A stretch of DNA of 50,601 bases, taken from contig JAQUIG010000016.1 in assembly GCA_028683435.1 (NCBI GenBank), positions 1 to 50,601 of the forward strand, read 5' to 3'. A program made the translations under genes and the position numbers. Every line of letters starts with the position of its first letter. Within the stretch, counting starts at the first letter, position 1. The notes under the pieces were generated by a model. It saw only the letters and a program-made list of their open reading frames with translations. It was not told the origin of the DNA and ran no database searches. Below, one piece after another: positions 15,002-50,601 of the stretch. The DNA is from Desulfuromonadaceae bacterium. Its GTDB lineage: Bacteria > Desulfobacterota > Desulfuromonadia > Geobacterales > Pseudopelobacteraceae.

Positions 15002-16429
15002 ATGAAGTTATCCCGTCCTCAAGAAGAATGCGGTGTTTTTGGTATTTACAATCATTCTGAAGCATCTAATCTGACCTATCTCGGTCTCTACGCCTTGCAG
15101 CATCGCGGCCAGGAAAGCTGCGGCATTGTCTCCTCAGACGGTGAATCGCTGTACGCTCACAAGCGGATGGGACTGGTTGCGGATGTTTTCAGCAATCCGG
15201 ATGTCTTCAAAAAACTGCCGGGCAAATCGGCTATCGGGCATGTTCGCTATTCGACTGCCGGGGCTTCGGTGGAAAAAAACGTGCAGCCGATCATGGTTGA
15301 CTATTCGCGTGGCTCAATCGCGGTCGCCCACAACGGCAACCTGGTCAATGCGCAGCTGCTGAAGTCGGAGCTGGAGGCCTACGGTTCGATTTTCCAGACG
15401 ACGATGGATACGGAAATAATTATTCATCTTATTGCCGCGTACAAGACAAACTCGCTTGTTGACCGTATTTCTGATTCCTTGAAGCGCGTCCAGGGTGCAT
15501 ACTGCCTGCTTTTCCTGACCGAGAGCCGCATGATCGCGGTGCGTGACCCGAACGGCTTCCGGCCTTTGTGCCTCGGTAAACTGGGTAACGCCTGGGTTGT
15601 CGCATCTGAAAGCTGTGCTCTTGATCTGATCGAAGCCGACTTTGTTCGCGAGATCGAACCTGGTGAAATGGTTGTCTGCACCAAAGATGGCGGTATCAAG
15701 TCACTCTTTCCGTTCAAAAAGATCGAACCGACCCCATGCATCTTTGAATTCGTTTATTTTGCTCGTCCCGATTCGTACATATTCGGCAGGAATGTCTACC
15801 TGGCCCGGAAAGAGCTGGGTCGCCAGCTGGCGCGTGAATATCCGGTGGATGCCGATGTTGTCATAGCGGTGCCAGATTCCGGCGTTCCTGCCGCCATGGG
15901 ATACGCGGAGGAGTCCGGCATACCGTTCGAGCTCGGTCTGATCCGCAACCACTATGTCGGCAGGACGTTCATAGAGCCGGCCCAGGCTATTCGTCACTTT
16001 GGTGTTAAAATAAAGCTCAATCCGGTGCGCGAACTTCTCCGCGGGAAGCGGGTCGTCGTGATTGATGACTCGATCGTGCGCGGCACCACGTCGCGCAAGA
16101 TCGTTAAAATGGTACGGCAAGCGGGTGCAAAAGAGGTCCATTTGAGGATTTCATCGCCACCTACCAGCTTCCCGTGCTACTACGGTATCGATACGCCGAA
16201 CCGCAAGGAGCTTATTTCCTCATCGCATACGATCGACGAGATCTGTCGCTATGTTACCGCCGATTCTTTGGGGTATCTGTCCGAAGAAGGTTTGGTCGCC
16301 TCGATCGGCCACGGCGACAACCGCTATTGCAAAGCCTGTTTTGCCGGAAAATATCCGGTTGCATTCCCCAAACCTGTGGATGTTCCGCAGATGGGATTAT
16401 TCGAAGAGGAGCATTCGGAACATGAGTGA
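15002..16429 (+). CDS. purF: Amidophosphoribosyltransferase
   Basis: 475 residues. It makes phosphoribosylamine from PRPP and glutamine, the first committed purine step. The N-terminal nucleophile is preceded by a nine-residue propeptide (MKLSRPQEE, then C10 in CGVFGI), which implies self-processing as in the Bacillus type. Cysteines in TPCIFEF, SFPCYYG and NRYCKACF sit where the Bacillus enzyme binds its [4Fe-4S] cluster. The PRPP motif is VVVIDDSIVRGTTS. The ATG at 15002 gives the family start; earlier in-frame codons overlap purQ. The 3' end overlaps pyrE by 8 bp. Confidence 0.95.
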   Translation: MKLSRPQEECGVFGIYNHSEASNLTYLGLYALQHRGQESCGIVSSDGESLYAHKRMGLVADVFSNPDVFKKLPGKSAIGHVRYSTAGASVEKNVQPIMVDYSRGSIAVAHNGNLVNAQLLKSELEAYGSIFQTTMDTEIIIHLIAAYKTNSLVDRISDSLKRVQGAYCLLFLTESRMIAVRDPNGFRPLCLGKLGNAWVVASESCALDLIEADFVREIEPGEMVVCTKDGGIKSLFPFKKIEPTPCIFEFVYFARPDSYIFGRNVYLARKELGRQLAREYPVDADVVIAVPDSGVPAAMGYAEESGIPFELGLIRNHYVGRTFIEPAQAIRHFGVKIKLNPVRELLRGKRVVVIDDSIVRGTTSRKIVKMVRQAGAKEVHLRISSPPTSFPCYYGIDTPNRKELISSSHTIDEICRYVTADSLGYLSEEGLVASIGHGDNRYCKACFAGKYPVAFPKPVDVPQMGLFEEEHSEHE

Positions 16430-39809: not shown

Positions 39810-40778
39810 TCAATATATGACGGTGGAGAGAGAAAGTAGCTGAATAGGCAAATTTATGCCAAGTTTGTCGGCAGTTTTAAGGTTTACGCTGATGTTCAGG
39901 CTCTGCACCCGCTTGATCGGAATGTCTGTCGGCCGCTTTCCCAGCAAAACTTCAAGCGCGCTCGTACCTGCCAGTTCTCCGAGTTTGTGGTAATCAGGGC
40001 CGAGCGATATCAATGCGCCATTCTCTTTGACCATTTCAGGAATGATGACCACGGAAGGTATCCGGTGCTGGTTGAGAACCGTCATGATCCGGTTTGCGTT
40101 GGCTTTTATGAAAGAGTCGGAGGGGAACATGACGGCATCGACCCGTGCGCTGACGATCTGTTTTAGCGCCGCCGGTATCGCTTCCATGTCACGTACCGGA
40201 ACGTCGATCATCTTGAATCCGAATTTTTTACGTACGCTTTCAACTTCAGCCTTTTGAAACTTCGGTGCGGGGTCTTTTTCGTAATAAATGAAAGCAAGCT
40301 TGCGGATGTTCATAACCAGAGAGAGAGTCCTGAAAGCACTTTCCATCGCAACGATGTTCGATGCCCCCGTTGCATTGTTACCTGAACTTTCCCAGCTTTT
40401 AACGAGGTTTGCCTCAATGGGGCGCTGCACAACATTGAATATTACCGGCTTGTTTTTGATCTTTTCCACCGCCATCTGGGCCGCCATCGTCCCGAACACA
40501 TAGAAAAGATCGAATTGAGAGTGGTCAAGGCCGGCAATGATCTTTTTCAGCCCGTCCTTACTTTGATTGGCGTCAAAGACCGTTATTTTTACATCGAAAT
40601 CTTTTGAAGCGGCAAGGGTGTCGCGGAAACCTTTTTCAGCAGGAGTTTCCCCCCGGAAAAGAATCATGGCAACGCGCTTGACCTGACGTTCGGCACCACA
40701 TACAGGTGAGGATGAGAATGGAAACGCCAGCAGCAGAATCAGCAGTAGCAATGGCATAACCATGCCTGTTTTAATCAT
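39810..40778 (-). CDS. ABC-type substrate-binding protein (COG2984-like), orphan
   Basis: 322 residues. An N-terminal signal peptide (MPLLLLILLLAFPFSSSPVCG, cleavage near residue 30) is followed by two Rossmann-like lobes: VAMILFRGETPAEKGFRDTL, DLFYVFGTMAAQMA, KPVIFNVVQRP and AVMFPSDSFIKANANRI. This is the TrpX/COG2984 type of periplasmic binding protein. No ABC permease or ATPase is adjacent. Its start overlaps the SpoIIE-phosphatase gene by 8 bp and two AEC carriers follow, so it probably serves sensing or delivery in that unit. Confidence 0.86.
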   Translation of the reverse strand: MIKTGMVMPLLLLILLLAFPFSSSPVCGAERQVKRVAMILFRGETPAEKGFRDTLAASKDFDVKITVFDANQSKDGLKKIIAGLDHSQFDLFYVFGTMAAQMAVEKIKNKPVIFNVVQRPIEANLVKSWESSGNNATGASNIVAMESAFRTLSLVMNIRKLAFIYYEKDPAPKFQKAEVESVRKKFGFKMIDVPVRDMEAIPAALKQIVSARVDAVMFPSDSFIKANANRIMTVLNQHRIPSVVIIPEMVKENGALISLGPDYHKLGELAGTSALEVLLGKRPTDIPIKRVQSLNISVNLKTADKLGINLPIQLLSLSTVIY

Positions 40779-42921
40779 GTGTCACCGCTCCCCGATACTT
40801 CAGCGCAACCATGGTGACGTCGTCCGATTGCGGAGCCCCATCGGCATGCCGACTGACCTCAATACGGATCCCGTGAATCATGTCAGTAAGCTCTTCTTTC
40901 GGTCCGCGCTGCAGGGCGTCCAGGAGTTGCGGTTCTCCATACAGCTCATCGGCCAGATTGGTTGCCTCGGTCACGCCATCGGTATAAAGGAACAGCGTGT
41001 CGCCAGGGCTCATGGTGATCCGCTCGGTTTCATAAACCACATCCTCCATCGGCCCGAGTACAAAGCCCGGTTTCAGGGTAAGGTAGCGTACCCCTGCTGA
41101 GTCGATTACCAGTGGCGGGTTATGTCCGGCATTGGCAAAACGCACCTCTCCGCTTTTGATATCGAGAATGGCACAGAAAACTGTGGCAAACATGCAGCTG
41201 TCATTGTCTGCGGCAAGAATATTGTTTACATATCCAAGTATCTGGTCGGGTTCGCCAAGCCGTTGTCCCTCTGACTTCAACAAGGTTTTTGCCACCATCA
41301 TATAGAGGGCGGCAGGCACACCCTTGCCGGCGACATCGGCAATCAGAAAACAGAGATTGTTGGTGTCGATAAAAAAGAAATCATAAAAGTCACCGCCGAC
41401 CTCTTTCGCCGGGTCCATCGAGGCAAAGATATCGAACTCGGGGCGATCCGGGAACGCGGGAAACAGGCGGGGAAGGAGGCTCGCCTGGATATCGCTGGCA
41501 ACATTGAGCTCGCTCTGGATCCGCTCCTTGGCTGCCGTGGTCTCGGTCAGGTTGCTGATATAATCCTTCAAGTCGGCAGTCATCTTGTTGAACGTATGTG
41601 CCAACTCTTCAATCTCGTCTCCCGAATGGATCTCTATCCGGTGATCAAGGTTGCCGTTGCCGATGCAGCGCGCTCCTTCATCCAGCACCATGATCGGGTC
41701 CGTGACCAGTTTTGCCGTGCGTCTGGCCACCATGTAGACGAGGGCAATGATGATGAAGAACACAGCCGTGAGAATAAAGAGTGAAAAACGGATCTTGCGT
41801 ATGACCTGGGATTTGACCGTGTCCGCCTGTTTCAAAATGGCATTCTCGGTCGGTATGATGGGCGCAAAGACCGCCTCGACCGGCATGATGAACAGCACCG
41901 ACCAGCCGGTACTCTCCACCGGCGCATGGGCGATGAAGCAATCCTTCCCCTTGTAGGCGGCCTTGTGGATCCCAGATTTGCCGATTTTCAGCTCTTCCTC
42001 AAACTTTTTCTGACTGCCGGAGGCCGCATCAAGGTTGAAACGCTCGACCTTCTGGGGGTCGGCCCAGTTCTCGGCGTTGGTTGACATCCCTTCGCGTGCG
42101 ATAATATTGAGGCTGTGATCAACCAGAACGGCGCTGCCCAGGTTGTTGAGCCTGGTGCTGATGATGCGTTCGTTGATCGTCTGGAGCGGTACATTGACCG
42201 CCACCACCGCTACCAGCTTCTTCTGGCGGTAAATCGGACGGGAGTAATTGATGCGCAGATTTTTGGCGATAACTCCGATATATGGTGCGCTCCAGCCCGG
42301 CACTCCTGAGTCTGTCGCCCGTTTGAACCAGTCCCGTTTGCGTACATCATAATCAGGTGCTACCGTTCCCCACGGAAAGCGCCGGAACAGGCCGTCCGGC
42401 GTGGCGAGGTTAAAGTCGTTGATGTTTGAGTTGTTGGCGATAAACGGTTTGAAAAAGGAATCCATGGCTGACGACAGCTCCAGATCATTTTTGATCCGTT
42501 TGAAATCAACCACGGCGGGATACTGGTATACCGAGCTGAGTGAAGGATCGCGCGGTTTTTCAGCAGGCGCATAGGAACGGTTCTTCGGATAGGATGACGG
42601 GTTCTGCCATAGTTTCTCGGCAATGTCGGCCAGGACATTGACCGTCCCTTCAACCTCCTTGAATTCGGCATTGCAAAGATTGGCGCGGTCAGTCGTGATG
42701 CGCAGCAGGCCGTCCTGAGTCAGGGTTTCCAGAGCCGACTTGCTGATCTTCAGCGCATCCTGTCCAAGCCCAGTACTGGATTTGACGGAATAATCCCCCA
42801 GTCGCCTCATGCCATCCAGAGAAATAATCGCAAAAAGTATCAGCGACAGCGATGCCACGCCGAGCAGCGCCTTGAGAATGCGCGCCCGGATGCTTCCCCG
42901 GGTGAAGATGTTTTTCAGCAT
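40771..42921 (-). CDS. Membrane sensor with Cache, HAMP and SpoIIE/PP2C phosphatase domains
   Basis: 716 residues: first membrane helix ~18-35; a long periplasmic dCache-like region ~60-370 (with DYDVRKRDWFKRA and GWSAPYIG typical of Cache); second helix ~380-400; HAMP ~400-455 (GNGNLDHRIEIHSGDEIEEL); then a PP2C-type phosphatase ~470-710 with MDPAKEVGGDFYDFF, IADVAGKGVPAALYM and LYTDGVTEA. Such proteins dephosphorylate anti-sigma-factor antagonists on ligand binding. No such antagonist gene is nearby. It heads a four-gene minus-strand unit with a binding protein and two AEC carriers. Confidence 0.93.
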   Translation of the reverse strand: MLKNIFTRGSIRARILKALLGVASLSLILFAIISLDGMRRLGDYSVKSSTGLGQDALKISKSALETLTQDGLLRITTDRANLCNAEFKEVEGTVNVLADIAEKLWQNPSSYPKNRSYAPAEKPRDPSLSSVYQYPAVVDFKRIKNDLELSSAMDSFFKPFIANNSNINDFNLATPDGLFRRFPWGTVAPDYDVRKRDWFKRATDSGVPGWSAPYIGVIAKNLRINYSRPIYRQKKLVAVVAVNVPLQTINERIISTRLNNLGSAVLVDHSLNIIAREGMSTNAENWADPQKVERFNLDAASGSQKKFEEELKIGKSGIHKAAYKGKDCFIAHAPVESTGWSVLFIMPVEAVFAPIIPTENAILKQADTVKSQVIRKIRFSLFILTAVFFIIIALVYMVARRTAKLVTDPIMVLDEGARCIGNGNLDHRIEIHSGDEIEELAHTFNKMTADLKDYISNLTETTAAKERIQSELNVASDIQASLLPRLFPAFPDRPEFDIFASMDPAKEVGGDFYDFFFIDTNNLCFLIADVAGKGVPAALYMMVAKTLLKSEGQRLGEPDQILGYVNNILAADNDSCMFATVFCAILDIKSGEVRFANAGHNPPLVIDSAGVRYLTLKPGFVLGPMEDVVYETERITMSPGDTLFLYTDGVTEATNLADELYGEPQLLDALQRGPKEELTDMIHGIRIEVSRHADGAPQSDDVTMVALKYRGAVTHD

Positions 42922-42966: not shown

Positions 42967-42993
42967 AATAAACAGACGTAATGCCTGTTTATT
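42967..42993 (-). terminator. Hairpin at the 3' end of the Cys-rich gene 1
   Basis: AATAAACAG (42967-42975) pairs with CTGTTTATT (42985-42993). It spans the stop codon of the secreted-protein gene and lies 46 bp before the SpoIIE gene start. It is A/T-rich and lacks a strong GC core, so termination strength is uncertain. Confidence 0.4.
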
Positions 42994-43423
42994 CTCTCCC
43001 TTCTATTAACGCACCCTTCCAGATAAGGGTTCCCTTATCGTTATAGACTTCGCATGAATAAATTTCACCAGGCAACCCTTTTTGTCCATATATATTAACC
43101 CAACCGTGTGCGGTAACCTTTTTCCCACAATGTCCGTAATGCATTTTCGGTGTAAATTCAATTTTTGGACCGGGAACCGACACCGTTATCAATGTATCAC
43201 CACGACAGCCTTTTTTATCGCCGGGACAGCACGTTTTACCGCCGGGTGAAAGCGCGCCGGAAGACAGGCAGCTGCCGCAATACTCACCGTGGACTTCACT
43301 GATGTATCCCTGGGTCCTATTATAGACACAATAGGCATGGGCCTGCGTGGCTCCAAATGTGAGGGTTGCCAATAAAACTACCATGGCGATGCGCATGGCT
43401 TTAACCCGATTTTTTCCGTTCAT
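42989..43423 (-). CDS. Secreted cysteine-rich protein 1 (unrecognised family)
   Basis: 144 residues. A signal peptide (basic start MNGKNRVKAMR, hydrophobic core, cut near AHA-YC) leads to a mature region with eight cysteines: AYC, EYC, SC, CC, GC, GHC and SCEV. It is clearly paralogous to the next gene upstream: shared blocks ISEVHGEYC, CCPGDK, ITVSVP, MHYGHCG, VTAHGWV and a C-terminal LIW. The Cys pattern suggests four disulfides and export to the periplasm or beyond. AGGAGG precedes the ATG at 43423. I do not recognise the family. Confidence 0.72.
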   Translation of the reverse strand: MNGKNRVKAMRIAMVVLLATLTFGATQAHAYCVYNRTQGYISEVHGEYCGSCLSSGALSPGGKTCCPGDKKGCRGDTLITVSVPGPKIEFTPKMHYGHCGKKVTAHGWVNIYGQKGLPGEIYSCEVYNDKGTLIWKGALIEGRE

Positions 43424-43434
43424 GTCCTGCCTCC

Positions 43435-43536
43435 TTATTTGGTTGAGGTTACGGTGACACCGCCCCGGTTGTCCACGGTAACGATATAGTCTTCCAGCAG
43501 GGTGGTGAGTGCTGCGAGGACGGTTTGCTTGTGCAT
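43435..43536 (-). CDS. 33-residue small ORF between the Cys-rich paralogues
   Basis: A short ORF with a strong ribosome-binding site (AAAAGGAG, six bases before the ATG at 43536). The product starts MHKQTVLAAL, continues through an amphipathic LLEDYIV stretch and ends VTVTSTK. It lies 11 bp before the Cys-rich gene 1 start and 111 bp after gene 2, in the same direction. It has no cysteine and no clear signal peptide. Its good initiation signals and tight spacing favour translation; function is unknown. Confidence 0.55.
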   Translation of the reverse strand: MHKQTVLAALTTLLEDYIVTVDNRGGVTVTSTK

Positions 43537-43647: not shown

Positions 43648-44112
43648 TCAATATTTTTTCCCATCCTTTAACTGATCATTCCAAATAAGCCGTCCGTTGT
43701 CGTCATAGACCTCGCATCGAAAAAACTGACCTGTTCCATATATCTTTACCCAACCGTGTGCGGTAACCCGTTCTCCACAATGGCCATAGTGCATCCCCGT
43801 TTGCCATGGTGTATTGGGAACCGATACGGTTATCCATGTTTTGCCTCGGCACCCTTCCTTATCGCCTGGACAACACGCTTTGCCGTTTTTAGCAATATTG
43901 CTACTCAAACAGCGGTTGCAATATTCTCCATGCACCTCGCTTATGGGTAATGACGTGTAATTGTACACACAATATGCGTGAGCCTGTGTGGCTCCTATGG
44001 CAACAATTGACAAAACAACTGAAATAATGATGGATTGTTTAACTGCTGCGGCAATACTGTGTGTATTGATTGATGCTGTCGGTTTATTGCTGGAAACTGG
44101 ATTCTTTTTCAT
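43648..44112 (-). CDS. Secreted cysteine-rich protein 2 (unrecognised family)
   Basis: 154 residues. A longer N-region (MKKNPVSSNKPTASIN) and a hydrophobic core near residues 27-44 end at AHA-YC. The mature region shares the blocks ISEVHGEYC, CCPGDK, ITVSVP, MHYGHCG and VTAHGWV with protein 1 and has the same eight-cysteine layout. AAGGAG precedes the ATG at 44112. A sigma-54-type promoter ends 41 bp upstream of the ATG, with an enhancer-like repeat further out. It likely heads an operon with the small ORF and Cys-rich gene 1. Confidence 0.74.
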   Translation of the reverse strand: MKKNPVSSNKPTASINTHSIAAAVKQSIIISVVLSIVAIGATQAHAYCVYNYTSLPISEVHGEYCNRCLSSNIAKNGKACCPGDKEGCRGKTWITVSVPNTPWQTGMHYGHCGERVTAHGWVKIYGTGQFFRCEVYDDNGRLIWNDQLKDGKKY

Positions 44113-44153: not shown

Positions 44154-44171
44154 TAGCACGGGCTGTGCCAA
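44154..44171 (-). promoter_or_regulatory. Sigma-54 (-24/-12) promoter of Cys-rich gene 2
   Basis: Minus-strand TTGGCACAGCCCGTGCTA has GG at -24 and GC at -12 with exactly 10 bases between, close to TTGGCACG-N4-TTGCW. The inferred start point, ~12 bp further, leaves a ~31-base leader before the ATG at 44112. Confidence 0.72.
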
Positions 44172-44232
44172 AAATAATAGTATGTGATATCAATGTCTTG
44201 CGTTAAGTATTCTGCCAACATTCAACCATCGT

Positions 44233-44249
44233 CGCCAACTTTGGAGGCG
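44233..44249. promoter_or_regulatory. Enhancer-like 17-bp site upstream of Cys-rich gene 2
   Basis: CGCCAACTTTGGAGGCG, an imperfect inverted repeat centred 72.5 bp upstream of the -24 GG. It shares 5'-CGCCAA and GGCG-3' ends with the site at 47274. A half-site TGCCAAC lies 20 bp nearer the promoter (44213-44219), the same spacing as upstream of the 122-residue gene. Confidence 0.6.
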
Positions 44250-44250
44250 G

Positions 44251-44376
44251 TTACTCCATCCCCAACCGCTTAAGTTTCTTGCGCGGCCCTTCGCGGCTTA
44301 TCCCCCAACTGTTCCGCTGCCTGGGTCTTGTTGCCTTCGGCTTTTTTCAGCGTCTGTTCAATCAACTGTTTTTCAC
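44251..44376 (-). pseudogene. Remnant of the C-terminal DNA-binding end of a sigma-54 activator
   Basis: The minus strand reads KQLIEQTLKKAEGNKTQAAEQLG, matching the Fis-like HTH end of the intact activator (45180-46406). It then needs a one-base correction in a run of five G to continue as ISREGPRKKLKRLGME and stop. Nothing of the AAA+ domain precedes it. This is a frameshifted 3' remnant of a second activator copy. Its stop lies one base from the enhancer-like site, as in the intact copy. Confidence 0.8.
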
Positions 44377-44500
44377 GGCGCGCTGTGCCGTATGACCGCA
44401 ACGCAGCACGTTGCAACGAGAAATTTTTTTTGCAGGAGTCTTAAGTAGTCAGTATGTTGGGATTCACGATACTCTTCCTAACCTACTGACTGACTATTTA

Positions 44501-44869
44501 CTATTTCTGGTGCAATTTTTCGAATGCATAATCGCATGTGGTCCAATTGCTGATGTTTGGACGTATGTAAATATATCCGTCTCTCTTGAAGAGTCTCCAG
44601 TAGTCTGGGTCGGAATTGCTTTGATGTTTACACAATAAGGAGTAAAGAGAACCATTTTCTGAACATTCGTAGACAATATATGGCTTTCCATTTTGGGAAA
44701 AGCTCATCGTAATCTTTTTCCAGGTTCCCCAAGTGAAAGGCCAGTGAGACGTCTCAACAACATTTATATCGCAGCTAAACTTGCCATTTGTCCAGTCGGC
44801 AGCGCGTGCTGTTGACGCCGAAAGAGAGATGAGTACAGTCAACCATGCAGCGATAATCAGATTTTTCAT
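44501..44869 (-). CDS. Small secreted protein, 122 residues, unrecognised
   Basis: A classic signal peptide (MKNLIIAAWLTVLISLSAST, cut near ARA-AD) precedes a ~100-residue mature protein with four cysteines and many aromatics (HWPFTWGTWKK, PDYWRLFKRDGYIYIRP). AGGAG lies before the ATG at 44869. It is not a paralogue of the Cys-rich pair by eye. A near-consensus sigma-54 promoter and an enhancer-like site lie upstream, with a ~200-base leader. Family and function unknown. Confidence 0.7.
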   Translation of the reverse strand: MKNLIIAAWLTVLISLSASTARAADWTNGKFSCDINVVETSHWPFTWGTWKKITMSFSQNGKPYIVYECSENGSLYSLLCKHQSNSDPDYWRLFKRDGYIYIRPNISNWTTCDYAFEKLHQK

Positions 44870-44885
44870 GACAGTCTCCTTAATT

Positions 44886-44905
44886 CCTCTAAAGGGTACT
44901 AGAGG
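44886..44905 (-). promoter_or_regulatory. Small hairpin before the ribosome-binding site of the 122-residue gene
   Basis: CCTCTA (44886-44891) and TAGAGG (44900-44905) can pair around an eight-base loop, just upstream of the AGGAG site. It could affect translation; this is tentative. Confidence 0.3.
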
Positions 44906-44916
44906 GACATTGCTTG

Positions 44917-44946
44917 TTATTTTGCTATTGCAGCAATTAACCACAT
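44917..44946 (-). CDS. Possible 9-residue leader ORF
   Basis: ATG at 44946, eight bases after GGGAGG, encodes MWLIAAIAK and a stop, within the leader of the 122-residue secreted gene. It is too short to judge by content; only the ribosome-binding site argues for it. Confidence 0.2.
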   Translation of the reverse strand: MWLIAAIAK

Positions 44947-45000
44947 AGCGACAGCCTCCCTTCAACCCCTATTCCTCATTGGCCAGTTATCTGAACCTTA

Positions 45001-45033
45001 TTATGCTTGCCGAGAGCTTTTTGCTTCCTTCAT
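45001..45033 (-). CDS. Possible 10-residue leader ORF
   Basis: ATG at 45033 with AAGGAG five bases upstream encodes MKEAKSSRQA followed by tandem stops. It is the first start codon with a good ribosome-binding site after the inferred sigma-54 start point. It may be a leader peptide or a decayed gene start. Confidence 0.25.
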   Translation of the reverse strand: MKEAKSSRQA

Positions 45034-45081
45034 ACCATCTCCTTTTTGTTGCACGCGTTTTGCGTGTCCGCTTAAGCTATA

Positions 45082-45099
45082 TATCAACAAACGTGCCAT
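45082..45099 (-). promoter_or_regulatory. Sigma-54-like promoter with changed -12 element
   Basis: Minus-strand ATGGCACGTTTGTTGATA matches TGGCACG-N4-TTG perfectly but has GA instead of GC at -12. Position and an upstream 17-bp repeat match the other two promoters in this region. It may be weak or decayed. Confidence 0.45.
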
Positions 45100-45162
45100 T
45101 TTTAAACATGCTGTTTTTGTTTAAATTGATCGGTTTGGCTGCTGCCAACTGCTGGCTGCAAC

Positions 45163-45179
45163 CGCAAATATAGTTGGCA
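45163..45179. promoter_or_regulatory. Enhancer-like 17-bp site upstream of the 122-residue gene
   Basis: CGCAAATATAGTTGGCA matches the site at 47274 in 13 of 17 positions and is centred 74.5 bp upstream of the -24 GG. It abuts the activator stop codon. TGCCAAC at 45143-45149 lies 20 bp nearer the promoter, as upstream of Cys-rich gene 2. Confidence 0.55.
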
Positions 45180-46406
45180 CTAATCCATCCCAAATCTTTT
45201 CAGCTTCTTACGCAACCCTTCGCGGCTCATCCCCAGCCGCTCTGCTGTCTGGGTCTTGTTGCCTTTGGCCTCCCGCAGTGCCTGTTCAATCAACTGTTTT
45301 TCTGAATCCTTCAGTAGTGACTGAGGAGTAGTGGTGGTCAGTTTTAGAGGTTGTTGCAGTGTTTCAGAGAGGTCGGTGACGTTTATGCTATCACCATAAG
45401 CCAGGGCAACGGCCCGCTCAATCTCGTTTTCCAGTTCCCGTACATTGCCGGGCCAGGGGTGGCGACGCAACTGTTCCACAACCTCCTTGCCAAAACGCAT
45501 TGGCGGCCTGCCGCAATTGCGCCGCCATTTATCCAGAAAGTGACGGGCGATCAGGTCGATGTCATCGCGGCGCTCCCGTAGGGGTGGAATGCGTAACTCA
45601 ACGCCGTTTAAGCGGTAAAACAGGTCTTCGCGGAAAGTTCCCGCGGCGATCTCTTTTTTCAGATCACGGTTGGTGGCGGTAATAATGCGCAGATCAACAG
45701 GAATGGTGGTGCGGCTCCCGACACGTTCAAGGGAACGCTCTTCCAGCACCCGCAGCAGCTTGGCCTGGAACTGAAGAGGTATCTCGCCAATCTCGTCAAG
45801 AAAAAGGGTTCCTCCCTGAGCATGCTCAATCTTGCCGACACGGGCATCGACACCGGTGGCCACCCCTTTTTCGATGCCGAACATCTCGCTTTCGAAGAGG
45901 CTGTCAGGAATGGCTGAGCAGTTGACCGCAACGAAAGGCATGGCGCTGCGCGGGCTGTTGTAGTGGATCGCCTTGGCAAACAGCTCCTTGCCGGTGCCGG
46001 TTTCACCGCTGATAATAACCGAAAGACGGGAGTCGGCAATCCGCTCCGCCTTGGCGATTAGTTCCCTGATCGGAGTAGTTGTGCCGAGAATAGAGGAAAA
46101 AGGAAACGAGCGTCGCAGGTTTTTTTTCAGGGTGATATTCTCACGGGCAAGCTGCTCTCGTGCCGTCCGCAACTCGGCCTCTGTCCGTTTCAGATCCTCG
46201 ATGATCTGTTCCAGATGGAACTCACGGGCTTCTATCTTGACCGCCATCATGCCGAACGCCTCGGCAAAGCGGGCAATAAGCGGAGGGTAGGTGCCGCTTT
46301 TGGTCAGCTCGAAGATATCATTGTGCTGGCCGTAGCATCCCTTGGAAAGATCTTCGGCAACCGTGATCAAACGGTTGAATAGTTGATTGAGCTGAATGTC
46401 TTTCAT
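45180..46406 (-). CDS. Sigma-54-dependent transcriptional activator (AAA+ / Fis-type HTH) with divergent GAFTGA loop
   Basis: 408 residues. The N-terminal ~52 residues (MKDIQLNQLF, then FELTKSGTYPPLIARFAEAF) and a coiled coil to ~105 replace a receiver domain. The AAA+ domain has GETGTGKE Walker A (~136), GGTLFLDEIGEI Walker B (~200), RFREDLFYRL-like FREDLFYRLN and arginine fingers. The loop that contacts sigma-54 reads GVATGV rather than GAFTGA. The C-terminus is a Fis HTH (GNKTQTAERLGMSREGLRKK). ATG 46406 follows GGAG; a GTG at 46427 is less likely. It sits between two small secreted-protein genes with sigma-54-type promoters, so it is the likely regulator. Confidence 0.92.
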   Translation of the reverse strand: MKDIQLNQLFNRLITVAEDLSKGCYGQHNDIFELTKSGTYPPLIARFAEAFGMMAVKIEAREFHLEQIIEDLKRTEAELRTAREQLARENITLKKNLRRSFPFSSILGTTTPIRELIAKAERIADSRLSVIISGETGTGKELFAKAIHYNSPRSAMPFVAVNCSAIPDSLFESEMFGIEKGVATGVDARVGKIEHAQGGTLFLDEIGEIPLQFQAKLLRVLEERSLERVGSRTTIPVDLRIITATNRDLKKEIAAGTFREDLFYRLNGVELRIPPLRERRDDIDLIARHFLDKWRRNCGRPPMRFGKEVVEQLRRHPWPGNVRELENEIERAVALAYGDSINVTDLSETLQQPLKLTTTTPQSLLKDSEKQLIEQALREAKGNKTQTAERLGMSREGLRKKLKRFGMD

Positions 46407-46498
46407 GAGAATGATCTCCGGCAGCACTTGAATGGTGTTTATTTCCCGAGAACCCAGTAGTTCGCATCAGGATAAACTTTCCTGGCAATCCGCCCTGT

Positions 46499-46936
46499 TT
46501 ACTTGCACATTCCTATACTGCCAGATTTACATAATCTGCCATCTGTCCACATCGTCTCGCTCAGGTACGCCCCGTTCAGGTACGCCCCGTTCAGGTTCGC
46601 CCCGCTTAGGTTTGCCCAGTTCAGGTTCGCCCCCCTCAGGTCCGCCCAGCTCAGGTCCGCCTCCCTTAGGTTCGCCCCGCTCAGTTTTGCCTCGCTCAGG
46701 TACGCCCAGCTCAGGTCCGCCCCCCTCAGGTTCGCCCCCCTTAGGTCTGCCCCCCTTAGGTCTGCCGCCCTCAGGTTCGCCCCGTGCAGGTTCGCGCCTA
46801 GAAGGTCACAGTTTACACACGCATTTTTTTTTAACAATCGCTCGACATGTTCCTGATTAGCCGCCGCTGCCCTTCCGGGCAGCAGGGTTGTTCCGGTAAT
46901 GGTGATCAGTGCTGCTGCAATTAGTAGTTGTTTCAT
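46499..46936 (-). CDS. Secreted pentapeptide-repeat protein
   Basis: 145 residues. A signal peptide ([20 protein letters not shown], cut near AAA-AN) is followed by a short linker with a Cys pair ([11 protein letters not shown]) and about 16 consecutive A(D/N)LxX pentapeptides to residue ~130, which should fold as a right-handed quadrilateral beta helix. It ends with a Cys-containing tail ([11 protein letters not shown]). AAGGAG precedes the ATG at 46936. Most pentapeptide proteins lack an export signal; this one should be periplasmic or secreted. Upstream are a sigma-54 promoter and enhancer-like site; the activator gene follows after 92 bp. Confidence 0.85.
46556..46795. repeat. 15-bp coding tandem repeats of the pentapeptide gene
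   Basis: Repeating units near CAGGTTCGCCCCGCT on the plus strand, one per pentapeptide, about 16 units with few changes. The low divergence suggests recent expansion or homogenisation. Confidence 0.8.
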
Positions 46937-47067
46937 GGCAAACTCCTTTTTCAGGTGGTTGATTATGGTGATGTTCAAGAGCAATAAATGTGTCCGGCTG
47001 TACACTGCTGTACTTTTGAGAAAATTGCGGAGACGGTTTATGCCCATTAGCAGGCCTCTATAAAAAA

Positions 47068-47100
47068 GCGTCAGCCGCAATCTGACTGAGTGCTGCTGAC
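47068..47100 (-). terminator. Possible attenuator hairpin in the pentapeptide gene leader
   Basis: On the minus strand GTCAGC (complement of 47095-47100) pairs with GCTGAC (complement of 47070-47075) and is followed by GC then TTTTTT. The loop is long (19 bases). It lies between the sigma-54 promoter and the gene start. Confidence 0.35.
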
Positions 47101-47193
47101 ATCATCAAACGACCAAGCATCATCCCGGTTACCACAATACTTTTTTGTTTTATTTTCTTTCCCCGTCAATTCTTTCTGTATTTATTTACTGTA

Positions 47194-47211
47194 AAGCACC
47201 ATGCGTGCCAA
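47194..47211 (-). promoter_or_regulatory. Sigma-54 (-24/-12) promoter of the pentapeptide gene
   Basis: Minus-strand TTGGCACGCATGGTGCTT has GG-N10-GC and a perfect TTGGCACG -24 block. The inferred start point is ~47184, leaving a ~250-base leader. Confidence 0.72.
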
Positions 47212-47273
47212 CAGTAACTATCTTAAATATCAGCATATTAGATGTTTTGATGCTAATAACTTTTGACCGATGG

Positions 47274-47290
47274 CGCCAATAATGTTGGCG
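47274..47290. promoter_or_regulatory. Enhancer-like 17-bp inverted repeat upstream of the pentapeptide gene
   Basis: CGCCAATAATGTTGGCG, a perfect 6-bp inverted repeat with a 5-bp spacer, centred 73.5 bp upstream of the -24 GG. It is the best palindrome of the three related sites and the likely binding site of the sigma-54 activator. Confidence 0.62.
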
Positions 47291-47305: not shown

Positions 47306-47632
47306 TCAATCCGATTTCAGTGCCACAATCGGATCCAGGAGCGAGGCTTGCCGGGCGGGGTAATAGCCGAAGAAGATACCGACGGCGTTGGAAACCCCGA
47401 CCCCCAGGAGGATGGCGCCTGATGACAGAGCAAACTGCCATTTGGCAAAATGGGAGATGATCACGGACGCGCCGACGCCAAAGAGGATGCCCAAAACCCC
47501 GCCGATGAGCGATAAAATGATGGATTCAATCAGGAACTGCCCCCTGATGTCACCCCGCTTTGCGCCGAGAGCACGGCGGATGCCGATTTCGCGGCGACGC
47601 TCCGAGACTGACACCAGCATGACATTCATCAC
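47306..47632 (-). pseudogene. 3' fragment of a MacB-type permease gene
   Basis: Encodes the last ~107 residues of an FtsX/MacB permease (MNVMLVSVSERRREIGIRRA to DPIVALKSD) and differs from the intact copy (48422-49639) at only two residues (QFA for HFV context). All upstream parts are missing. Its 5' end is joined to a fragment of a sigma-54 activator gene. The ATG at 47632 overlaps the stop of that fragment. Confidence 0.88.
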
Positions 47633-47799
47633 TCCAACACCGTGCCGAACGCCTCGGCAAAGCGGGCGATCAGGGGAGGGTAGGTGCCGCTTTTGGTCAG
47701 TTCAAAGATATCATTGTGCTGGCCGTAGCATCCCTTGGAAAGATCCTCGGCGACCGTGATCAAACGGTCGAATAGTTGATTGAGCTGAATGTCTTGCAT
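47629..47799 (-). pseudogene. 5' fragment of a sigma-54 activator gene
   Basis: Starting at ATG 47799, the first 52 codons match the intact activator at 50 of 52 residues (Q for K at 2, D for N at 11), ending ARFAEAFG. The frame then passes into permease sequence out of phase and stops at 47629. The joint is near 47640 with only a few bases of microhomology. It is best explained by a deletion inside a former activator-exporter gene array. Confidence 0.88.
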
Positions 47800-47881: not shown

Positions 47882-48328
47882 CTATCTGCCGCGCACGGGC
47901 CACACATAGTAGTTGAACGTCTTATAGTTGATGCTCACGCCGTCACCGCCCATGAGCCCGTACCAGGCGCTGTCTGTGCCGTTGGCGTAGGTAGTAGAGG
48001 ACCAATAGTAAGCCTGGACGTTGGTGAATCCTTGCTGATTCCTCTGCCGGGCTATCAGTTCATATCTGGTGGGAAGACGCCATTGACCGGCAGTGGAACC
48101 ATCCGACAGTCCGCAGGAGCCGGATTTCAGGCTTGCTGCGGCGCTCAAGGCCTCATTCCATTTTTTTTTGCCAAAACAGTTGGCGTTTTGCAGCCAGACC
48201 AGACCGGTGCTGGTGTCGGTGAGTGTACCGTTAGGTGGTATGTTAGCTTTATTTTCACACCACGCTGCACCAGCTATCATCATAAAACAAACCACCACCA
48301 TTCCGATTACCATTGTACTTTTCTTCAT
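47882..48328 (-). CDS. Secreted DUF1566 (Lcl C-terminal domain-like) protein
   Basis: 148 residues. A signal peptide (MKKSTMVIGMVVVCFMMIAG, cut near AWC-EN) precedes one DUF1566 domain: TDTSTGLVWLQNANC, WRLPTRYELIA, YYWSSTTYA and the C-terminal YYVWPVRG. DUF1566 is a lectin-like fold common in secreted Geobacter proteins. AAGGAG precedes the ATG. It begins 93 bp after the MacB-type permease gene on the same strand and may be co-transcribed with the exporter. Confidence 0.85.
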   Translation of the reverse strand: MKKSTMVIGMVVVCFMMIAGAAWCENKANIPPNGTLTDTSTGLVWLQNANCFGKKKWNEALSAAASLKSGSCGLSDGSTAGQWRLPTRYELIARQRNQQGFTNVQAYYWSSTTYANGTDSAWYGLMGGDGVSINYKTFNYYVWPVRGR

Positions 48329-48421: not shown

Positions 48422-49639
48422 TCAATCCGACTTCAACGCAACAATCGGATCCAGCAGTGAGGCTTGACGGGCGGGATAATAACCGAAGAAGATACCTACG
48501 GCATTTGAAACACCGACACCCAGGAGGATAGCGCCCGATGACAGGACAAAGTGCCATTTGGCAAAATGGGAGATGATCACGGACGCGCCGACGCCAAAGA
48601 GGATGCCCAAAACTCCGCCGATGAGCGATAAAATGATGGATTCAATCAGAAATTGTCCCCTGATGTCACCCCGTTTGGCACCCAAGGCGCGTCGAATGCC
48701 GATTTCGCGGCGACGCTCAGAGACTGACACCAGCATGACATTCATAACGCCAACACCGCCGACGATGAGGGAAATGCTGCCGATGGCCCCCAGCAGCAGC
48801 GTGAACATCTGCATCTGTTTTTCCATCTGGGCGATGATCTCTTCCGGACTGGTCACCCTGACTGACGATTTTTTTGTTTTTGACTTGAAATAGGCAAGCA
48901 CCTGATCACGGGCGACCGTGTTGGTTACTCCGGTGCTGACGCGGGCGATGATTTCGGAGATTTCGGCTTCACGGGAGCTGCGTAGTGCGGAGGTAATGTG
49001 GACATAAATCGTTTCGTTGGGCTGAAAGCGGCGCATCCCTCCTTCGAGAACTTCTGCTGTTACCCCCACAACCGTGTAGAGGCTCTGCCCGACACGGAGC
49101 TTTTTGCCGATGACGTCACCGCTCCCCAACGTGCGCATCTCGGTAGCTACCATGCTGCCGATGGTACAGAATTGGTTATGGGCATCAAGGTCGGAGATGA
49201 AACGCCCTTGACTGATCTTCAGTTTATTGATCCCCAGAAATGATTCTGTAACCCCGATCATGCCGGCATTCTGCAGCTTTTTGCCGCCATAGCTCGCCTC
49301 GCCGTTACCGCGTACCGATGGTGCCACTGCGCTGATGCCGGGACATTCGGTCGGAATGGCGAGAACGTCAGCCAGCTTGATCTTGCTTTTAGGCGCAGAT
49401 CTTGTGATGCGTCCCCCTGTGGATGGCTCACCGCCGCCAAATTGGCTTTCAATCGTAAGTACGTCCGTTCCCATCTCTTTAAACTGGCGCAAAGATTCTT
49501 CCTGGACGATCTTGCCGATCGAGACCATGGCGATAACCGAGCCGATGCCGATGACGATACCGATCAACGCCAGGACGGTACGCTGCTTGGATGACAAGAG
49601 GCTGCGCACCGCTTCTTTTATGTTAGCTCCGATGATCAT
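48422..49639 (-). CDS. MacB-type ABC exporter permease (FtsX fold)
   Basis: 405 residues. An N-terminal membrane helix (~25-45), a large periplasmic domain (~50-270) and three C-terminal helices with MNVMLVSVSERRREIGIRRA and GYYPARQASLLDPIVALK fit the mechanotransmission permeases of the MacB/YknZ/LolCE superfamily. ATPase and permease are separate proteins, unlike fused E. coli MacB. ATG 49639 overlaps the ATPase stop (ATGA). With a MacA-like adaptor upstream it forms a tripartite efflux or secretion unit. Its 3' quarter is duplicated at 47306. Confidence 0.93.
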   Translation of the reverse strand: MIIGANIKEAVRSLLSSKQRTVLALIGIVIGIGSVIAMVSIGKIVQEESLRQFKEMGTDVLTIESQFGGGEPSTGGRITRSAPKSKIKLADVLAIPTECPGISAVAPSVRGNGEASYGGKKLQNAGMIGVTESFLGINKLKISQGRFISDLDAHNQFCTIGSMVATEMRTLGSGDVIGKKLRVGQSLYTVVGVTAEVLEGGMRRFQPNETIYVHITSALRSSREAEISEIIARVSTGVTNTVARDQVLAYFKSKTKKSSVRVTSPEEIIAQMEKQMQMFTLLLGAIGSISLIVGGVGVMNVMLVSVSERRREIGIRRALGAKRGDIRGQFLIESIILSLIGGVLGILFGVGASVIISHFAKWHFVLSSGAILLGVGVSNAVGIFFGYYPARQASLLDPIVALKSD

Positions 49640-50301
49640 GGCACGATCACTCCGTTGCGCATGACCGCCACCCGCTGGCATTGGCGGGCGATTCCCGGAT
49701 CATGGGTAATAATGACCACGGTTATCCCTTCTTCGGCGTTGAGTTCCTTGAACAGCTCCATGATCTCTCCACCGACGTTGGTATCCAGGGCGCCGGTCGG
49801 TTCATCCGCCAGAATGAGGGCGGGGTTGCAGACCAGCGCACGGGCGATCGCTACCCGCTGCTGCTGTCCTCCGGAAAGCTCCGATGGCCGGTGGCCGGCG
49901 CGATCTGCCATGCCGACCCGCCGTAACAGCTCCATGCTGTGCTCGCGGGTGAATTTAGCGGCATCATCCCGGTACATGAGCGGCAGTTCGACGTTTTCAA
50001 GAGCGGAAAGTTTGGAGAGGAGAAAATATTGCTGAAAGACGAAGCCAATGTTACGGTTTCTGATGTCGGACAGGGCATCGTCATTGGTGTAAAGCACCTC
50101 CGCGTCGTTAAGCTCGAAACTTCCGGAAGTCGGTCTGTCCAGCAGGCCGATGATGTTCATGAGGGTTGATTTGCCGCAGCCGGACGGCCCCATGATGGAG
50201 ATCAGTTCGCCCTTGTCCACATTGAGTGACACCCCTTTCAGTACGTCCACTTCGGTGGGGCCGATATGATAGGATTTCTTTATTTCGCTGAGTCTGAGCA
50301 T
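49636..50301 (-). CDS. MacB-type ABC exporter ATPase
   Basis: 221 residues, the usual size of LolD/MacB-like ATPases. Walker A GPSGCGKST (38-46), Q-loop in FVFQQYFLL, signature LSGGQQQRVAIARAL, Walker B LILADEPTGALD and the H-loop THD are all present. It powers the adjacent permease. It starts one base after the MacA-like gene ends. Confidence 0.95.
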   Translation of the reverse strand: MLRLSEIKKSYHIGPTEVDVLKGVSLNVDKGELISIMGPSGCGKSTLMNIIGLLDRPTSGSFELNDAEVLYTNDDALSDIRNRNIGFVFQQYFLLSKLSALENVELPLMYRDDAAKFTREHSMELLRRVGMADRAGHRPSELSGGQQQRVAIARALVCNPALILADEPTGALDTNVGGEIMELFKELNAEEGITVVIITHDPGIARQCQRVAVMRNGVIVP

Positions 50302-50302
50302 G

Positions 50303-50601
50303 TTATTGCTTCCCGTCCCTGCTCATATCGCCGCTGCCGGAGAGGCCGACAACTTCGATGACATCGCCCTCTTTAAGCCCTTTAAGGATCTCCACCGCAT
50401 CCTGTGTCGTGTAGCCGGTCGTTACCTCAACCTTTTGGGCGGCGCTACCGGCTTTCTTTCTGCTCACAAAGCGCTTTCCCTGCTCTTCTGTGACGGAGGA
50501 CAGCGGCACCATCAGCGCATTCGGATTTTCGTAGATCATGATTTCAAGCTTTGCGGTCATGCCGGCCATAATCCGTTTTTTCAGCTCCGGCGGTACTGTT
50601 T
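50303..50601 (-). CDS. MacA-like periplasmic adaptor protein (3' part only)
   Basis: The frame is open to the window edge; the visible ~98 residues are the C-terminal end of an RND/MacA-type membrane fusion protein. Recognisable are PPELKKRIMAGMTAKLEI, ALMVPLSSVTEEQGKRFV, and the beta-rich VEVTTGYTTQDAVEILKGLKEGD, as in the last barrel domains of this family. It ends with a short polar tail. The gene start lies beyond 50601. It is first in the macA-like, ATPase, permease series. Confidence 0.88.
   Translation of the reverse strand, partial: TVPPELKKRIMAGMTAKLEIMIYENPNALMVPLSSVTEEQGKRFVSRKKAGSAAQKVEVTTGYTTQDAVEILKGLKEGDVIEVVGLSGSGDMSRDGKQ

Follow-up and report, generated by a model that had tools for sequence, protein, structure and literature searches.

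A predicted sigma-54-type regulon of small secreted proteins beside a GVATGV-type enhancer-binding protein in a Desulfuromonadaceae genome

A 50,601-nucleotide stretch of a Desulfuromonadaceae bacterium (GenBank assembly GCA_028683435.1, contig JAQUIG010000016.1, positions 1 to 50,601; hereafter the window) carries three promoter cassettes, each composed of a −24/−12 element of the sigma-54 type and a 17-bp palindrome at a nearly constant distance upstream, close to a gene (45180–46406, minus strand) coding for a one-component enhancer-binding protein of 408 amino acids, the activator. This activator probably drives the three cassettes as one regulon of small Sec-exported proteins, which are likely to be released through the MacAB-TolC-type system encoded nearby. 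In the best reading, the arrangement is a variant on known sigma-54 control, in which the activator carries GVATGV in place of the GAFTGA motif. The DNA elements, their geometry, their recurrence, their co-occurrence with the activator and the gene neighbourhood were all determined computationally. The window is the entire contig C8 of a draft genome of 3.17 Mb in 97 contigs, which, according to the nearest matches of the activator protein, belongs to a relative of the Geobacteraceae.

All three cassettes lie on the minus strand. Promoter 1 (TGGCACAGCCCGTGCT, 44155–44170) agrees with the −24/−12 consensus at 10 of 12 positions and, like promoter 3 (TGGCACGCATGGTGCT, 47195–47210), has the form GG-N10-GC with consensus flanks, whereas promoter 2 (TGGCACGTTTGTTGAT, 45083–45098) reads GA at −12, as the initial annotation of this DNA had seen; the three elements had been recognized there on the correct strand and placed one base too low. 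The predicted activator sites are a 17-bp palindrome at 44233–44249 (site 1), a 17-mer directly after the stop codon of the activator gene at 45163–45179 (site 2) and an exact CGCCAA-N5-TTGGCG at 47274–47290 (site 3), and the edge gaps between 17-mer and −24 element are 62, 64 and 63 bp in cassettes 1, 2 and 3. The centre-to-GG distances of 72.5, 74.5 and 73.5 bp reported earlier were reproduced exactly, while the positions 44233, 45163 and 47274, given there as centres, are the starts of the sites. A third half-site lies exactly 20 bp from the palindrome in cassette 1 (GTTGGCA, 44213–44219) and cassette 2 (45143–45149), confirming the TGCCAAC described at 44213 and 45143; site 3 is not accompanied by TGCCAAC. 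The 17-mer alone gave 307 genome matches at up to 2 mismatches compared with 249 for a reversed control, so the 17-mer by itself is near background and not specific, and only the composite of site and promoter is meaningful.

The composite was searched for, as a strict pattern permitting a site-promoter gap of 58–68 bp, in 141 genomes of the order. It matched in 43 of them, mostly once, with clusters in one Trichlorobacter-type genus. Regions around these clusters (the islands; 303,488 bases including the window) were scanned for pairs of a palindrome (at least 12 of 14 positions) and a −24/−12 element (at least 9 of 12), and 41 pairs were found at 61–64 bp versus 31 over 590 other offsets; as the choice of islands had allowed 58–68 bp, part of the enrichment within that range follows from the selection, but the confinement to four offsets does not. 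When only GG at the right distance was demanded, 43 of 78 matches carried GC at −12, compared with 0–5 of 19–38 at eight control distances, and the third half-site 20 bp further on was exact in 31 of the 78. The same cassette recurs across Trichlorobacter and Geobacter relatives, and the finding is larger than first described. Two of the 47 cassettes compiled (L180 +8457 and L193 −695) are spurious matches in MacB coding sequence and were kept in the counts.

The cassettes contain a further element, absent from the initial annotation, namely a site of the integration host factor (IHF) type about 30 bp upstream of −24 and on the strand opposite to transcription. In the window it is perfect (9/9) in cassettes 1 (TATCAATGTCTTG, 44188–44200, plus strand) and 3 (TATCAGCATATTA, 47228–47240, plus strand). 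Of the 47 cassette spacers, 28 match the IHF consensus at 8 or more of its 9 positions (2.5 on average and at most 8 after shuffling) and 16 match it perfectly (0.1 on average and at most 2 after shuffling), compared with 5 and none, respectively, in the other orientation, and 28 of 31 occurrences start 29–31 bp before TGG. IHF between enhancer and promoter is common at sigma-54 promoters, and the same consensus has been applied to Geobacter sulfurreducens, as stated in passages of PMC7962754.

Position and co-occurrence both connect the sites with the activator. The predicted site follows the activator stop codon by 0–12 nt in the window, and a site at most 12 nt after this stop codon together with a downstream −24/−12 element was found at 6 of 17 loci (L048, L049, L050, L052, L053 and Nitrospirae L057; the L050 site fell below the first scan threshold and was scored later, as L234), five of these six belonging to the 10 Geobacteraceae-type loci examined besides the window. 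A pattern in which two half-sites in tandem (the right arm of the palindrome and the third half-site) are combined with a promoter gave 34 matches in 17 of the 141 genomes. Of the 11 genomes that have an activator orthologue, 10 show this pattern (27 matches; orthologue defined as a match at E 1e-110 or better, that of G126 being just 51% identical), versus 7 of the 130 without (one match each; Fisher p = 3e-10). Among these seven, G130, a genome of the same genus that is 79% complete, bears cassettes that look genuine on two contigs (L190, L233). A control with the −12 spacing off by one gave 7 matches in 6 of 141 genomes, none of them in the fetched islands. These two lines, the site behind the activator and the co-occurrence, make one regulon of the adjacent activator, as initially proposed for the three operons, the best reading. 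Within the own genome, the three-half-site upstream activator sequence (UAS) was matched best by site 1 (1 mismatch), and site 2 tied at 2 mismatches with C56:162028, which has no good promoter behind it; with 28 matches in total and 33 in the reversed control, no further regulon members are indicated in this genome. In a distant deltaproteobacterial bin (L054), genes for HATPase, TolC, PAS-MacA, MacB ATPase, MacB, the activator and two proteins resembling SP1 (a target protein described below) follow one another in this order, and ahead of the first SP1-like gene there is a sigma-54-like promoter whose palindrome, of full score, stands at 93 bp, not 61–64. At 40 other loci of the activator's clade, a good palindrome was located 30–150 bp before 4 of 67 sigma-54-like promoters (at 93, 64, 78 and 54 bp), compared with 0 of 30 and 0 of 13 at loci of other enhancer-binding proteins; this difference (4/67 versus 0/43, p = 0.15) is suggestive of the palindrome in other loci and not significant alone.

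The predicted targets are mostly small and mutually unrelated. Among the 47 cassettes, 44 had an open reading frame (ORF) of at least 60 amino acids with a ribosome-binding-site-like motif within 330 nt, and by a crude rule 38 of these 44 ORFs had a signal-peptide-like start, compared with 67 of 276 control ORFs; the six others comprise two window ORFs for which the script took the wrong start, one unclear short ORF and three that are probably miscalled. At E 1e-4 the ORFs formed 23 sequence groups, of which three are probably miscalled; the largest (14 members) is mainly Lcl_C, others include a CVNH lectin, and many are without a family. Two downstream proteins are larger (261 and 709 aa), the latter being a lipoprotein-like protein behind a cassette at about 1249 in L185. 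In the window, promoter 1 precedes SP1 (43648–44112, minus strand), a small Cys-rich secreted-type protein of 154 aa without a Pfam family, and the next gene codes for its paralogue SP1b (42989–43423, minus strand, 144 aa), 58–61% identical by sequence comparison. Promoter 2 precedes the ORF for SP2 (44501–44869, minus strand, 122 aa, secreted-type), and promoter 3 a secreted-type pentapeptide-repeat protein (46499–46936, minus strand, 145 aa, PF00805), followed by the activator gene. Searches with SP1b and SP2 returned 7 and 2 matches, each including the query itself, and G125 has an SP2-like gene (32% identical) 42 nt after the activator and its cassette. The window also has an Lcl_C/DUF1566 gene (47882–48328, minus strand, secreted-type, 148 aa), the type most frequent among the targets in relatives; no cassette was found before it. 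Between promoter 2 and SP2, at the usual position of the first gene, a short ORF of 10 codons preceded by a good ribosome-binding site (45001–45033, minus strand) was noted; the first gene behind promoter 2 may have decayed and left this ORF. An ORF of 33 aa, likewise behind a good ribosome-binding site (43435–43536, minus strand), resembles the first and last pieces of a 120–126-aa secreted-type family that sits behind cassettes in L178, L179 and L181, and looks like the remnant of an internal in-frame deletion.

The activator has the domains of a sigma-54 enhancer-binding protein (Sigma54_activat, PF00158, 218 bits; an AAA lid; HTH_8, PF02954, 55 bits, a Fis-type helix-turn-helix) behind a helical N-terminus of unknown family, and the Pfam search gave no receiver, GAF or PAS domain. 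Its best sequence match was ZraR (1ojl, E 7e-78), and the fold matches listed are of the same AAA+ type. In the structure model the N-terminal helices span residues 2–21, 29–37 and 42–100; compared with HAMP (PF00672), this region gave no match in the window protein and a weak one (E 0.017, under the cut-off) in one of eight proteins. An HD-domain protein (L177 2744–3664; L180 near 15006–15284), which in L177 adjoins STAS and HATPase genes, shares this N-terminal domain (40% identity over 93 aa), so the domain is a reusable input module; no match to it was found on the L231 stretch of the own genome.

The GAFTGA loop of the activator reads GVATGV, with Ala in place of the central Phe, and is one residue shorter than that of ZraR and NifA in two alignments. 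Relatives were sought in named genomes, the best 80 of 209 being kept, and an alignment of 40 members showed most of the loop to be invariant. A tree was built from 108 enhancer-binding proteins of the named loci and of the own genome, a 109th row having been left out because its match was short; in it, 49 rows including the activator lie on one side of a branch with SH-aLRT (Shimodaira-Hasegawa-like approximate likelihood ratio test) support of 100. All 49 have Ala for Phe: 46 read GVATGV or GVASGV, L072 GAATGV, and L079 and L102 GIATGV; the loci had been found partly by the word EMFGIEKG, whose overlap with the motif is confined to the initial G of the latter and which served as the GVATGV label in the neighbourhood survey. 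Among the nearest proteins in a large collection, the best 120 of 7454 all begin GVA at the loop (one being readable only to GVA). The clade spans Geobacterales, Desulfovibrio-type, Nitrospirae, Myxococcota-labelled and betaproteobacterial genomes. The search for rpoN (PF04552) covered 20 genomes, the own genome included, of which 9 have the activator and 11 lack it, and gave a single match in every one; therefore the clade either does without the Phe or needs a partner activator. Changes of Phe or Thr in GAFTGA mostly abolish activity according to passages of Francke et al. (PMC3162934), a large survey that sorted out sigma-54-independent proteins by the integrity of this motif, and a NorR paper (PMC2941729) cites in part of its text that, in PspF, Tyr is the one residue able to take the place of Phe. 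In the open-licence literature, GVATGV in enhancer-binding proteins was found only in Kazakov et al. (PMC4641369), where, in the part describing it, Desulfovibrio vulgaris DVUA0100 carries this sequence and is predicted still to activate sigma-54 promoters of type III secretion genes.

From these elements we infer binding by the activator, action of IHF, sigma-54 dependence, the export route and a partner switch, the last being the weakest of these inferences. The activator would bind the 17-bp palindrome, centred near −98, with the help of the third half-site two helical turns closer in two of the three cassettes; IHF would bend the DNA near −50, and the AAA+ ring would then open the promoter together with ordinary sigma-54. 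The products would be small, sequence-diverse Sec-exported proteins passed over the outer membrane by the co-encoded MacA/MacB/TolC. Promoter 3 may also transcribe the activator gene, which follows the pentapeptide gene behind this promoter by 92 bp, and the activator could in this way amplify itself. The activity of the activator is perhaps set by a partner switch (STAS, HATPase and dCache-SpoIIE).

Several observations weigh against control of the cassettes by the activator as proposed. Cassette 2 combines GA for GC at −12 with a weak IHF-type match (6/9), cassette 3 has no third half-site, and promoters 2 and 3 lie about 200 and 250 nt from the assigned start codons. At 11 of the 17 loci, which include the close relatives L047, L051, L055 and L074 and all four type-III-linked loci tried (L058, L061, L066, L071), the scan gave no site immediately after the activator, and G127 has the activator and no strict match, its cassette appearing under looser scoring (L234). 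The half-site pattern was shaped partly on genomes in which it was counted, its reversed version gave 25 matches over 22 genomes, so that single matches mean little, and 3 of the 44 downstream ORFs look miscalled. Finally, the activator has GVATGV, yet in passages of PMC3162934 and PMC2941729 loss of the Phe abolishes or strongly reduces activation in model proteins.

This last point leads to the possibility that the GVATGV protein occupies the sites without being able to contact sigma-54, and that a second, GAFTGA-intact activator, in mixed hexamers with it or antagonized by it, does the activating. The replacement of Phe by Ala throughout the clade is in line with this, as are 28 additional matches of the enhancer-binding type in the rest of the genome, of which 18 have an intact or near-intact motif and 10 gave no motif reading, and the joint action of paralogous activators described for Pseudomonas HrpR/HrpS and for Azotobacter in excerpts of published reports. 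However, no second enhancer-binding gene was found in the window beyond fragments of the activator gene itself, and the activator has kept the AAA+ domain, lid and HTH_8 along with a mostly invariant loop, as expected of a working part; we consider such a division of labour unlikely. Still less probable is that the promoters answer to another regulator and the activator is a mere neighbour: the link between site and activator is positional and phylogenetic only, but co-occurrence in 10 of 11 versus 7 of 130 genomes argues against this reading, and the palindromes at other clade loci do so weakly.

Local duplication was also considered as the source of the shared geometry. A decayed copy of the activator 3′ end with a broken frame (44252–44374, minus strand, 80% identical to 45181–45302) adjoins site 1, and copies of the 3′ end of the MacB permease gene (47306–47632, minus strand) and of the 5′ end of the activator gene (47638–47799, minus strand, 93% over 54 aa) lie beside site 3, so the three cassettes are not independent by origin. 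Shuffled sequences reached the observed spacer likeness in 185 of 500 cases for cassettes 1 and 2, 236 of 500 for 1 and 3 and a borderline 26 of 500 for 2 and 3; the spacers show no clear excess of likeness over shuffled sequence, so the constant distance is not simply a result of copying. In addition, the homology detected for the duplicated gene ends does not reach beyond the stop codons or only just passes them (site 2 abuts that of the activator, and site 3 lies 8 bp beyond the copied MacB end), yet sites and distances persist, also in other species with unrelated downstream genes. A leftover of recent duplication is thus largely refuted and highly improbable, and the earlier claim of a fixed geometry in otherwise different DNA beyond chance is upheld by the offset peak in relatives and the spacers, with the correction that the outer flanks are duplicated. 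Chance matches, to which the near-background frequency of the 17-mer alone might point, are refuted by the geometry peak at 61–64 bp (41 pairs, versus 31 over 590 other offsets) and hardly deserve any weight given the GC at −12 in 43 of 78 and the co-occurrence with the activator.

The surrounding genes of the window, all on the minus strand and read from the contig end, start with the C-terminal part of a PAS-MacA-type adaptor (50303–50601), a MacB-type ATPase (49636–50301, PF00005), a MacB-type permease (48422–49681, PF12704 and PF02687) and the Lcl_C protein, followed by the copied activator and permease fragments, site 3 with promoter 3, the pentapeptide-repeat protein, the activator, site 2 with promoter 2, SP2, the decayed activator 3′ end, site 1 with promoter 1, SP1 and SP1b. 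Downstream of SP1b are a dCache-HAMP-SpoIIE phosphatase (40771–42921, identified by domain search), an ABC substrate-binding protein and two carrier-type membrane proteins (the binding protein and first carrier assigned by domain search, the second carrier by similarity). The PAS-MacA gene is split between the ends of C64 (L231, first half) and C8, so the two contigs are very probably neighbours, and STAS, HATPase and TolC genes stand beside PAS-MacA on C64. The parts of a MacAB-TolC system (PF12704, PF02687, PF00005, PF02321 and HlyD-type domains) are thereby split between two contigs of this genome. It seems unusual for an adaptor of the MacA type to carry a PAS domain. Across the islands, genes for MacA/MacB/TolC and for a partner switch are encoded, and those for MacB, the activator and SpoIIE-type proteins recur together.

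Release of the small proteins by MacAB-TolC is the most likely export route, by analogy with two described systems. In Escherichia coli, MacAB-TolC exports the enterotoxin STII, a small Sec-exported protein with disulfide bonds that the MacB pump releases from the periplasm (passages of PMC5985334), and the Aat system for Aap/CexE likewise moves small Sec proteins in two steps via a MacB-related system (PMC7943197, in part). Unlike in the STII system, the adaptor of the window bears a PAS domain at its N-terminus, ATPase and permease are encoded separately, and the candidate cargo is diverse and under one promoter type. E. coli MacB holds ATPase and permease in one chain. In the open-licence literature, no paper was found joining Geobacter, MacB, sigma-54 and secreted proteins.

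The partner-switch components of the island, known from genes alone, are STAS, HATPase_c_2 and a SpoIIE phosphatase, as in switches of the RsbV/RsbW/RsbU type. The classical targets of those switches are sigma factors, in contrast to the putative target here, an enhancer-binding protein; in the open-licence literature no paper was found that brought together three of the four subjects partner switching, sigma-54, SpoIIE and enhancer-binding. STAS and/or HATPase and SpoIIE genes also lie near clade activators in L054, L078 and L084, thus also outside the Geobacteraceae. A Trichlorobacter thiogenes-type island (L178, 9511–15924) has genes for a glycoside hydrolase of family 3, a solute-binding/permease protein and a mandelate racemase-type enzyme inside, perhaps a link to peptidoglycan fragments.

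The window system resembles those of NtrC-type proteins (ZraR, NtrC1, PspF) in its AAA+ and HTH_8 domains, a UAS near −98 and an IHF-type site between UAS and promoter, and differs from them in the Ala for Phe, the shorter loop and, by Pfam, the missing receiver, GAF or PAS domain. DVUA0100, as described in part of PMC4641369, is similarly one-component, with a long unknown N-terminus, GVATGV and predicted sigma-54 targets that include a putative secreted protein. While DVUA0100 itself, likened here by its published description, is outside the tree, SctU-linked proteins of Desulfovibrio-type genomes share the clade with the window activator, and most Desulfovibrionaceae clade members sit behind SctU, often with SpoIIE next. 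The neighbours differ, being type III secretion genes for DVUA0100 and MacA/MacB/TolC and small Sec-type proteins for the window activator; SctU and SctV had no match in the window, in L231 or at loci L047–L053, the rest of the genome not having been searched. The UAS and IHF-type geometry is described here for the window cassettes.

It is conceivable, and we propose it tentatively, that the whole clade activates ordinary sigma-54 without the GAFTGA Phe by means of the shortened GVATGV loop and serves secretion, with a type III branch and a branch of small proteins linked to MacAB-TolC, gated by a partner switch acting on the activator rather than on the sigma factor. The Phe of GAFTGA has been treated as near essential; with the Phe gone, dozens of constrained sigma-54/IHF-type promoters and one rpoN in the genomes searched, this natural Phe-less clade makes the rule testable on native promoters, and how a GVATGV activator works is the point of general interest. 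The system is a candidate case of partner-switch control over an enhancer-binding protein, and for the Geobacteraceae the cassette offers an address tag for finding unstudied small secreted proteins.

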